From the IMG/VR virus record IMGVR_UViG_3300044846_002495, positions 1 through 31,169 of that record: a stretch of 31,169 nucleotides of DNA; one strand, written 5' to 3'. Both the position numbers and the translations under genes were made by a program. The notes beneath the pieces are model-generated. The model saw nothing but the letters and a program-made list of their open reading frames with translations, was not told the DNA's origin and ran no database searches. Origin of the DNA: a virus. Of this stretch, positions 17,499 through 21,249 are shown piece after piece (position 1 is the first letter of the stretch; the number at the start of each line of letters is the position of its first letter).

Positions 17499-18350
17499 TT
17501 AAATCCACGCGGAACGGAAAGAAAAAGAAACGGAACCGGTACCGGAAGTACCGGCCAAACGAATGGCGTTGTCTCCAGGTTGAACGGCGAACCATTGCGA
17601 ACCAACGACAAGCCATGAGTAACGCGAAGCCGTACCGTTCAACAAAACCGAACGGGCCAGCGAGTCAACCACCAACGTTTCGCCAGCGGCAACGGTGCCG
17701 GTGAATGCGAGTGTTTCGCCGGTTGTGATGTTCTCGAGCGTCGGGTTGACGATTGGCCCCGAGATAGTTGCGACCCACGGGGCGCCGAACTCACCGGCGT
17801 TGCTGGCCGTGAGTTGCCCGCCCGACACCGCCCCGCCGAAGCTGAGGGGAAACGTTACGGGGAACGTTACGCCAGTACCCGCCACGGTCGCTTGCGATGC
17901 GGTTTCGGTTATCAGGGTTTGAGAATAAACACGGGGGTCCGTGGCGTACCATTCGACCACGGCGCGGCCGTGGCCGTTCAAATAGTTTCGGTCCACGGGT
18001 AGGGACAGTTTGCGAACACGGGCGCCAACCTGAACGGCCGTGCCACGGGCAAGCCCCGGGATTTGAACACCGAGCGCCGCTTCGGATTCTGCGCCAACAA
18101 CAAGGGCCGACGAGAAATCTTGCCAAACCGTTTCCGAAGGGTGAGGCGCCACCACCTCGATTTCGGCGACAATGGACCGGCCCCCCAAATAGTCGGTGCC
18201 AGCAAACAAGCCATGAGCGCGGGCGCGTGTTTGGTCCGACGTGCGCACTTCCGGGGCGTCGTGAAAGCCGCTGAGTTCGGCCAGTAGATACGGGGAACCG
18301 TCACCCCCAATAGTGAGGCCCCCGAAAGTCATCGTCCAATCGGTAGGCAT
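17499..18350 (-). CDS. distal tail protein (Dit-like)
   Basis: A 283-aa protein between tape measure and hub, the standard Dit position. The N-terminal part (GLTIGGDGSPYLLAELSGFHDAPEVRTSDQTRARAHGLFAGTDYLGGRSIVAEIEV) matches the first domain of siphovirus Dit proteins; the C-terminal part is a galectin-like or carbohydrate-binding-type beta domain ending SVSFSFRSAWI. It forms the ring joining tube to tip. ATG at 18350 shares a base with the tape-measure stop (TAATG). Confidence 0.78.
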   Translation of the reverse strand: MPTDWTMTFGGLTIGGDGSPYLLAELSGFHDAPEVRTSDQTRARAHGLFAGTDYLGGRSIVAEIEVVAPHPSETVWQDFSSALVVGAESEAALGVQIPGLARGTAVQVGARVRKLSLPVDRNYLNGHGRAVVEWYATDPRVYSQTLITETASQATVAGTGVTFPVTFPLSFGGAVSGGQLTASNAGEFGAPWVATISGPIVNPTLENITTGETLAFTGTVAAGETLVVDSLARSVLLNGTASRYSWLVVGSQWFAVQPGDNAIRLAGTSGTGSVSFSFRSAWI

Positions 18351-20728
18351 TACCCGGCAACCTTTCGCGACCAAAGAACTTCGCGGCCTATGTCATACGC
18401 CGAAGCGTTGGAACCGTTGACGTACACGTTCACGGTATCGCCGCCGACGCCAGGTCCAACCCCGGCGCTTTCCAACATTCGTGAACTATCACGGTTTGAG
18501 AAAATCCGAACGCTTGACCCGATCTTGTGACCAATTTCGGGGCCTTCCTCGCCGACGGTGAACCATCCATCGGTCATGCGGCCACCCTTAGCCCACGGCG
18601 TGTAGTAGTTGCCATCGTTGCCGGGTGTGCCGTAGTTGACGTAATGGTAACTCTCGGCCGTGTAAACGCTTTTCGTGTACGCCCGCAACTTCTCGAGTTC
18701 CGCGTTGACTGCCGCAACGTTGCTCGTCACCGGAACGTGAACGCCTTTGCCGTCTACCGCGTCCGCGGTGTTGCCAACGCCGAGAATGTCATAGGACAAG
18801 TTCTTTGCGGCTTGTGAGTTCGGATCGAAACCGAAACCCTTTAGGTCTTGGAATTGTTGCAAAAGTTGTTCGGACCCTGCGCCGTCGGCTTGCGCGCTTT
18901 TCAATTCTAAGATGTCGCCCTTGTATGCAATGGCGGCGGTTGCGTTTGCGTAGGTTGCGTCTTTTGCTTGTTTGGAGTTCGGGCCGTAGTCGCGTACCGC
19001 AACGTTCAGCGCCTCTTGTGCTTTTGTCGCTTCGGTTTGTGATCGGTAAGCGGCGAACCACGGGTCGGTTTGTGCGCGTAGTTCGTCGGCAAGTGTTTTC
19101 AAGTCTTGAACTTGTTTAGCGACGGCGGCCGCTGCGTTTGTTGAAGCCCCGGCCATGCCTTCAAAAACGCGGGTTGTTGCTGAGCCTTTGGTCCCTGCGT
19201 TTTCGTATTGGTCTTGTAGGTCGTCAAAGGTCAACACGAGGTCTTTGATTTCGGTGTTGTTGAGTTCGCCCGAATCCTTGAGCCGTATCATTTCCTGCGC
19301 CACTACGTCGCCGCCTGCGGCAAGTTCGCGCATTTTTTCAACCAACGAATCCGCGGAGGCCTCTGTTCTGAAGAACAAGTCGCTGGACGCGTTGAACCCC
19401 TCGTCTTGTGATTCTTTGAAAGCGGTTCGGAACTTCTCGAACGAGTCCCCCGAGTTTGCTAACTCATTGCCCAACAGTTCAAGGTTTGTCGTTGTGCCGG
19501 TCAAGTTGTCGGCAATGTTTTTGTCGGCCAAAAGTTTTGCCGTTGCAATGTTCACATTGTCTTGAAGACTGCCGGTTGTTTTGTTGATTGCTTCGGCGTA
19601 GGCGTCTTGGCCCGCTGCGGCTTCGGCGGCGTCCTCGGCTTGTGCGCGTTGGTAAAACGAAAAGCCAATCATTGCCACGGTTGCGACGGCTAATGCGCCA
19701 GCAAGTCCCGTGGTGAGTGCGGTTGCCATGAACGAGGCAGTTTGCGACGACTTGGTCATTGAAGCGGTGAGCCCGTAGATCGCTTCCTGAGCTGACGCGA
19801 TACCACGCGACACCGCTTCAAACACGGGGGCGAAAACGTCGGCAAGTTTTGCAACAACGGTGACGACACCCGCTCCAATTGTCGCCAGTCCGGCAACCGC
19901 CGTGATGCCAGTTTGTACGCCGTCGGGTAACGCTTGAAAAGATTCAACAAGGAACTCGACACCGTCGGCGGCGGTTGAAACTATCGGAACAAGCGTGGCG
20001 CCAATCTGTTCTTGAAGGTTGCCAAGTTTGACCTTGAGTTGGTCTAGGGGTGTTTGTGCCGCTTCGGCCGCGCCCCCAAACTCTTTGCCGAGTTCTGCGA
20101 GAATTATTTTTTGGGCGCCGAGCGTGTCGCCCGCTTCGCTCATTGTTTTGATTTGGTCGCGTTGTTGTTCGTTGAACGTGACCCCGGCTTTGGTGAGTTT
20201 GCCCATTCCGCGCACCGGGTCGTTTAGTGCCTTGCCCAACATGACGGCGGCCGAACTGGCGTCGGTTCCCATGACTGCCGCCAAGTCCAACGCGTAGCCG
20301 GTCGCTTGGTCGAACACGTCGTTGCCTGCGCCAACCTCGTTGCGAACGTTTGTGAACGTCAGCAAAAGGTTTGCCGTTGATTGCACCAGTTCGTCGTCGG
20401 CGCCCGTCAAGTTTGAAAGCGATTCGGCGAGGCCCGAAACTTGTTCGGCCGTAGTCCATGAGGCGGCGCCGGTTGTCTTGATGACTCGTTCGGTTTCGCG
20501 TGAAATCTTTTGAGATTCAACCGCCGCGTCGAACGCGCCTTTTAGTGCAAACCCAACACCGGCAACGACACTCGCGGCCGCTGCGGTAACGGCCGGGGAA
20601 ATCTTCGAGCCCAGGTTCGCGAGTTTGCCGCTTGTGTTGTCCACTTCGTCGGACACGTTGCGCAAAGTTTTAGAGGCGCTGCGGTCCTCGCCGGTGAGGA
20701 CGATGGCTAGTTTGCGTTCGGTTGCCAT
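18350..20728 (-). CDS. tape measure protein
   Basis: A 792-aa, Ala-rich, mostly helical protein, the longest in the window. It starts with the TAMP-like region (ERKLAIVLTGEDRSASKTLRNVSDEVDNTSGKL) and has hydrophobic stretches around 43-68, 275-305 and 350-375. It sets tail length; at about 1.5 angstrom per residue the tail would be near 115-120 nm. It lies directly after the chaperone cassette, with GAGGACGG before its ATG. No lysozyme or peptidase domain is evident. Confidence 0.92.
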   Translation of the reverse strand: MATERKLAIVLTGEDRSASKTLRNVSDEVDNTSGKLANLGSKISPAVTAAAASVVAGVGFALKGAFDAAVESQKISRETERVIKTTGAASWTTAEQVSGLAESLSNLTGADDELVQSTANLLLTFTNVRNEVGAGNDVFDQATGYALDLAAVMGTDASSAAVMLGKALNDPVRGMGKLTKAGVTFNEQQRDQIKTMSEAGDTLGAQKIILAELGKEFGGAAEAAQTPLDQLKVKLGNLQEQIGATLVPIVSTAADGVEFLVESFQALPDGVQTGITAVAGLATIGAGVVTVVAKLADVFAPVFEAVSRGIASAQEAIYGLTASMTKSSQTASFMATALTTGLAGALAVATVAMIGFSFYQRAQAEDAAEAAAGQDAYAEAINKTTGSLQDNVNIATAKLLADKNIADNLTGTTTNLELLGNELANSGDSFEKFRTAFKESQDEGFNASSDLFFRTEASADSLVEKMRELAAGGDVVAQEMIRLKDSGELNNTEIKDLVLTFDDLQDQYENAGTKGSATTRVFEGMAGASTNAAAAVAKQVQDLKTLADELRAQTDPWFAAYRSQTEATKAQEALNVAVRDYGPNSKQAKDATYANATAAIAYKGDILELKSAQADGAGSEQLLQQFQDLKGFGFDPNSQAAKNLSYDILGVGNTADAVDGKGVHVPVTSNVAAVNAELEKLRAYTKSVYTAESYHYVNYGTPGNDGNYYTPWAKGGRMTDGWFTVGEEGPEIGHKIGSSVRIFSNRDSSRMLESAGVGPGVGGDTVNVYVNGSNASAYDIGREVLWSRKVAG

Positions 20729-20731
20729 TGT

Positions 20732-21249
20732 TTACCGTCCTCTCGTCCGGGTGTCGGCTAGTGCGTTTATGTCGTCAAGGTATGCGTGTAGTTCGGGCAA
20801 TGAAAGGCGGGAAACTTCCCACGGTTTGAGCCCGTAGGTACGCGAAAGAACAGGCCAAACTTCTAGAAGTTTGGCCCTTAGGATTCCGGGTTTTCGTCGT
20901 CGGTTTCTTCGGGGTCGATAACGACGGCTTCCAACATTCCGGGGGCGCCGATGTTCTCGGGCCAGTTTTCTTCTACTTCGGAAAGTTGCAGCGACGGTTC
21001 ACCGCAAGCGCGGCGACCTAACCAAAACAACACCTGAAAAGAATCAATGTCAATAGAAGAACTGTCGCCCCAAAAAGCCGAGAGGGGCAGACCGCCGCAC
21101 GCCTTTCGCAATGCGACTCGTTCACTTATCGGCAAGTTGTCGGGGCAAACTTCGACGGTCACGCCGTCAACTGTCAACCGCAAAACTTTTCGGGCTTGTT
21201 GCTGAGCCTCTTTGCGTTTTGAAACGCCGGGCCGTGGTGCTTGTGCCAT
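20732..21249 (-). CDS. tail assembly chaperone, long form by -1 frameshift
   Basis: The first frame (20878-21249) codes a 123-aa protein ending EETDDENPES. A second open frame, -1 relative to it, continues without a convincing start of its own to the stop at 20732-20734 and codes LLEVWPVLSRTYGLKPWEV, then SLPELHAYLDDINALA. If ribosomes slip at AAACCCG (20893-20887), a 172-aa fusion results (121 + 51 residues). The gene pair sits just before the tape measure, where siphoviruses keep a frameshifted chaperone pair (lambda G/GT; actinophage homologues) that binds the tape measure during tail assembly. The coordinates given cover the fusion. Confidence 0.82.
20853..20893 (-). promoter_or_regulatory. 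programmed -1 frameshift signal: slippery heptamer and hairpin
   Basis: The heptamer A AAC CCG (20893-20887) fits X XXY YYZ in the zero frame. Ten bases later a 24-base perfect palindrome (20853-20876) can form a 10-bp stem, GGCCAAACTT, with a CTAG loop. The zero-frame stop (20880-20878) lies between them. Slippery site, spacer and stem match the usual bacterial/phage arrangement, though AAACCCG differs from the better-known GGGAAAG type. Confidence 0.7.
20878..21249 (-). CDS. tail assembly chaperone, short form
   Basis: A 123-aa protein: a basic helical start (RPGVSKRKEAQQQARKVLRLTVDG), a central fold with VEVCPDNLPISERVALRKACGG and SIDIDSFQVLFWLGRRACGEPSL, and an acidic tail (PEETDDENPES). 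It is the expected major product of the cassette, with the frameshifted form made at lower level. ATG at 21249; the 23-base gap upstream holds AGGAGGA close before the ATG, a very strong ribosome site fitting high expression. Confidence 0.8.
   Translation of the reverse strand: MAQAPRPGVSKRKEAQQQARKVLRLTVDGVTVEVCPDNLPISERVALRKACGGLPLSAFWGDSSSIDIDSFQVLFWLGRRACGEPSLQLSEVEENWPENIGAPGMLEAVVIDPEETDDENPES

Follow-up and report, generated by a model that had tools for sequence, protein, structure and literature searches.

A conserved -1 frameshift in the chaperone genes of long-tailed phages was reportedly described by Xu, Hendrix and Duda in 2004. Slip sites of the lambda type have the form X_XXY_YYZ, for example GGGAAAG. 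In lambda, overlapping frames stand directly before the tape-measure gene and a low-rate -1 shift yields a G-T fusion; chaperone frameshifting of this G/GT type has been reviewed (PMC5009743). A study of 64 X_XXZ_ZZN heptamers assayed in E. coli (PMC4066793) provides the simultaneous-slippage model that we also apply here, together with a usual distance of 5-8 nt between slip site and stimulator. PRFect lists a hypothetical “threetwotwo” motif at annotated actinobacteriophage joins, most often in the form CCCGGAA, and gives GGGGGAA the name “fivetwo” (PMC10885494). The latter sequence was also proposed as the chaperone slip site of corynephage phi16 (PMC5506516).

We analyzed a viral stretch of 31,169 nt (positions 1 to 31,169 of IMG/VR record IMGVR_UViG_3300044846_002495, hereafter the window), the minus strand of which carries a phage tail gene cluster. 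As in lambda, a pair of overlapping frames lies immediately upstream of the tape-measure gene, which starts 3 nt past the stop codon of the -1 frame. The features of this cassette are as follows.

20878..21249, minus strand: G frame (short tail assembly chaperone), 123 aa, ATG to TAA
20880-20878, minus strand: TAA, the zero-frame stop of the G frame
20887..20893, minus strand: A_AAC_CCG heptamer in X_XXY_YYZ register, found in the window only and probably incidental
20884..20890, minus strand: proposed slip site C_CCG_GAA (CCG to CCC, GAA to GGA), in frame in the window and 34 of 38 relatives
20878..20883, minus strand: 6-nt spacer TCCTAA, including the zero-frame stop TAA; its length is constant in relatives with CCCGGAA
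20852..20877, minus strand: putative stimulatory hairpin, an 11-bp stem with a tetraloop, recognized from its fold, covariation and synonymous recodings
20732..20890, minus strand: -1 frame extension (T part) following the shift, from CCC to the stop at 20734-20732
18350..20728, minus strand: tape measure protein, 792 aa, matching phrog_27166 (E 4.7e-32) and PF06791

This cassette is very probably the G/GT tail assembly chaperone gene of a long-tailed phage, with the shift taking place on C_CCG_GAA with the help of the hairpin. The comparative evidence gives good support to a longer chaperone made by -1 frameshifting, with a predicted G-T fusion of 172 aa. Two differences from lambda G/GT stand out. 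The proposed site, C_CCG_GAA, is followed by a hairpin at a tightly kept distance, and the G protein of the window could not be linked by sequence to any known family.

Using the G protein and alignments of it, we found 38 viral-contig loci besides the window, several of them on contigs that are near-duplicates of each other. Identity to the G protein of the window ranges from 33 to 66%. Loci found by motif were excluded from the conservation and covariation counts. The two overlapping chaperone frames named in a preliminary description of this DNA are present in the window and are retained by the relatives, nearly all of which have both G and a -1 T frame; the overlap in -1 register is conserved, as is the core of the T frame, WPxLSxxYGxxPWDxxRL. 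No cultured relative was detected when G and two fusion proteins were compared by tblastn with 50,697 phage records; short T-part queries returned only chance matches among cultured phage records, and a 56-nt consensus search for cultured relatives found nothing. Likewise, no prophage was recovered when 84,980 prokaryote genomes were searched at the protein level; 28 DNA-pattern matches in prokaryote genomes were chance-like and had no recognizable T frame. Neither G nor the fusion of the window matched PHROGs or Pfam, and weak Pfam matches of other members (MDMPI_C, DUF1192) were judged spurious. The predicted fold of G (pLDDT 72) weakly matched proteins annotated as tail assembly chaperones; its one confident match was an uncharacterized phage protein, and a comparison with the PDB gave no match.

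The candidate site C_CCG_GAA, located inside the overlap 3 nt downstream of the AAACCCG heptamer and in register, occurs in register in the window and in 34 of the 38 relatives, all of which were found by protein similarity alone. Together these provide 22 distinct sequences of site and hairpin, some of them from loci with scarcely similar G proteins: L114, L117 and L121 have an identical site and spacing despite G proteins that hardly resemble that of the window. Four relatives (L106, L107, L115 and L120) lack CCCGGAA. L106 and L107 have a classical GGGAAAA at nearly the same place, with P-E (zero frame) and P-G (-1 frame) lost, and L120, a doubtful relative, has no clear slip site. In L115 (positions 2940-2970), CCCCCAA stands exactly in the place of CCCGGAA and is followed by the same GGGCC hairpin; it is perhaps a further variant slip site.

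The ends of the overlap restrict where the shift can occur. In L096 and L112 a -1-frame stop, TGA, directly precedes CCC, and in L096 a zero-frame stop also directly follows GAA, such that the overlap is 7 nt long and consists of exactly CCCGGAA. The shift would therefore take place on CCG/GAA or just after it, and the sequences rule out a slip further upstream as the common mechanism.

The region following the site contains the perfect 24-base palindrome GGCCAAACTTCTAGAAGTTTGGCC (20876-20853, minus strand), which lies within the hairpin and is the sole perfect stem of at least 10 bp in the 31 kb, compared with 0.6 expected in random sequence of the same composition. The preliminary description was right about this palindrome and fell short on its extent, since one more pair, a G.U, and the register that relatives keep constant bring the stem to 11 bp (20877-20852). 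All 22 distinct sequences with the motif have 6 nt between CCCGGAA and the stem, and CCCGGAA thereby has a stable structure with compensatory changes inside the 5-8 nt range. Across the 22 sequences, 82% of the cells are paired and six pairs are changed on both sides. The covariation score is 0.307, compared with 0.164 ± 0.021 for shuffled data (0 of 500), and it drops to 0.04-0.15 when the register is slid. In the main clade (14 sequences), 96% of the cells are paired and the register of the stem is fixed; in the more distant members L104, L114 and L117-L119 the stem is slightly shifted in register. The stem lies in coding sequence, and we therefore compared its folding energy with those of 1000 synonymous T-frame recodings at each locus. 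The hairpin was more stable than the mean of the recodings in 25 of 25 loci, with z down to -5.7, and its energy was below that of all 1000 recodings in seven loci. The window's own hairpin gives a modest result (z -1.65, 61 of 1000) that is not exceptional alone. Taken with the conservation of the site, these results strongly support C_CCG_GAA with a hairpin 6 nt downstream as the slip signal. A second structure is predicted after the hairpin at 20760-20830 of the window (minus strand), where a 134-nt fold has a z of -3.16.

From the frames, site, spacing and hairpin observed here, and from their conservation, we infer slippage, and the tRNA movements, efficiency and chaperone role may be pictured as follows. 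Most ribosomes would read the G frame to its stop at 20880-20878. When CCG occupies the P site and GAA the A site, the leading edge of the ribosome would meet the hairpin 6 nt downstream, and a minority of ribosomes would slip back by one base, with tRNA-Pro re-pairing from CCG to CCC and tRNA-Glu from GAA to GGA, the middle base pair of the latter becoming G.U. The shifted ribosomes would then read the -1 frame to 20732, producing the G-T fusion. By analogy with lambda, G may coat the tape measure and the T part may recruit the major tail protein.

The unusual step is the one in the A site. CCCGGAA is not of the form X_XXY_YYZ, since moving the A-site tRNA from GAA to GGA requires a G.U in the middle of the codon. 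The motif also lies outside the 64 heptamers assayed in E. coli, where the C_CCG tetramer reached only 1.8- to 3.6-fold over background (PMC4066793), a result that counts against it.

Moreover, overlapping coding for P-E in the zero frame and P-G in the -1 frame could alone preserve most of CCCGGAA. The last base of the motif is free at the level of the zero-frame protein, yet it is invariant: the Glu codon at the site is always GAA, never GAG, while GAA makes up 18-83% of the Glu codons in these phages. The joint chance of this is about 10^-5.5 if the loci are independent, an optimistic figure given that the relatives are not independent and that such joint probabilities are rough. A tRNA-Glu with a UUC anticodon would fit GGA through a single G.U pair, and one with a CUC anticodon would not. 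In addition, L106 and L107 exchange the whole motif for another recognized slip site at the cost of P-E and P-G, which favors slipperiness over the peptide as the conserved property.

The alternative that survives best is slippage of a single tRNA on CCCGGAA, with no double re-pairing: either tRNA-Pro moves from CCG to CCC ahead of the decoding of GAA, or tRNA-Glu moves from GAA to GGA in front of the stop. It is a genuine possibility, to which we give a minor share of the probability. In its favor, the change from CCG to CCC is one of wobble only, whereas the A-site change from GAA to GGA needs a middle-position G.U; a single-tRNA slip also agrees with L115, in which the Pro half of the site is kept and the Glu half changed, and with the several relatives in which the zero-frame stop adjoins GAA. 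Against it, the absence of GAG is expected if a UUC-anticodon tRNA-Glu must re-pair on GGA, and the distance of the zero-frame stop takes two values, with no accompanying change in the placement of CCCGGAA and the stem. The candidate site GGGGGAA, common in other tail chaperones, would involve an identical A-site step.

The preliminary description had instead placed the slip on A_AAC_CCG. Its account of the window is accurate in that AAACCCG stands in register with a 10-nt gap before the 24-base palindrome, and the zero-frame stop does fall between the heptamer and the stem. What the relatives bear out is a conserved -1 shift joining two frames, with a hairpin as 3' stimulator; AAACCCG itself is not a conserved site. 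It is in register in none of the 38 relatives, though both frames persist in nearly all of them, and it is thus confined to the window rather than conserved together with the frames. At its position the closest relative (L083, 66% identity in G) has CGACCCG, and others have CCACCCG (L103), TACCCCG (L084) or TGACCCG (L096 and L112); the heptamer is destroyed in these loci while both frames and the hairpin persist. AAACCCG, suggested as an extension of the repertoire of slip sites, had moreover been assayed before, as one of the 64 heptamers tested in E. coli (PMC4066793).

A slip at A_AAC_CCG in this phage only (tRNA-Asn to AAA, tRNA-Pro to CCC), whether by itself or combined with one on CCCGGAA, is accordingly improbable. 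The heptamer is in register, slippage there would also yield the fusion, and it is not among the three motifs named as failing with the strongest stimulator in E. coli (PMC4066793). However, the stem is 9-10 nt away instead of 6, outside the usual 5-8 nt (PMC4066793), and in L096 and L112 a slip at this position would turn the P-site codon into TGA. In-frame X_XXY_YYZ heptamers make up 0.30% of codons in the genes of the window, and the chance of at least one in an overlap of about 39 codons is about 11%; on its own, AAACCCG is therefore weak evidence. It could add a little to the shift in this one phage.

Separate production of the T part by stop-start coupling, with ribosomes reinitiating at a GTG or TTG that overlaps the stop of G, can be set aside as highly improbable. 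Such a codon does stand at +9 from the site, in the -1 frame, in about half of the relatives, but a GTG at that point is a by-product of TGA or TAG serving as the stop. The +9 codon is no start in the window and L083 (CTA), L084-L087 and L114 (GTA), L103 (ATC), L112/L113 (ATA) or L116 (CTG). In the window, the -1 ORF has its first ATG, GTG or TTG only after the conserved WPxLS part, 90 nt downstream of the site. Reinitiation also leaves the invariant CCCGGAA and the fixed hairpin spacing unexplained.

Returning to slippage on C_CCG_GAA, the proposal shares with PRFect's “threetwotwo” both the seven bases as a -1 motif and the G.U argument (PMC10885494). There CCCGGAA served as a hypothetical training motif. 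The present support comes from uncultured phages that lack close relatives in culture, where the motif is conserved, keeps a constant distance to a hairpin that covaries, and is bracketed by the ends of the overlap. As a slip site it had thus been anticipated as a hypothesis in the literature (PRFect, PMC10885494), and what our sequence comparison adds is strong comparative support. The putative GGGGGAA sites of phi16 and of Microbacterium phage Burritobowl (L108) have the same form, X_XXG_GAA. They would share the A-site step, in which GAA gives way to GGA and the middle pair becomes G.U, and they differ in having Gly (GGG) in the P site rather than Pro (CCG to CCC). In a sample chosen only by tape-measure similarity (L003-L082), a GGGGGAA candidate was seen in 9 of the 43 loci with any candidate, and a CCCGGAA candidate in 4 loci.

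We lean towards the view that CCCGGAA and GGGGGAA are members of one separate and widely used class of bacterial -1 slip sites, X_XXG_GAA, in which tRNA-Glu would re-pair on GGA. If true, this class breaks the rule that the A-site codon shifts within three identical bases. Since frameshift finders and annotation pipelines mostly seek X_XXY_YYZ, they would report the wrong site here, or none. The conserved C_CCG_GAA with its fixed hairpin also offers a clean test of whether a middle-position G.U in the A site is tolerated in -1 slippage.

The signal could further help to annotate the tail chaperones of uncultured phages where protein similarity fails. Scanning 2.9 million viral contigs with GACCCGGAANNNTRAGGGCC returned 14 stretches, 10 of which were on contigs of relatives already found; the 4 new loci were all of chaperone type with both frames. 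A looser pattern scan (49 stretches) gave a mixture of chaperone loci and chance matches and was left out of the statistics. As the loci found by pattern have widely differing G proteins, CCCGGAA with its hairpin can find chaperones missed by protein searches. Chaperone loci first encountered through this pattern are L126, L130, L132, L135, L151, L160, L167, L168, L173 and L175.
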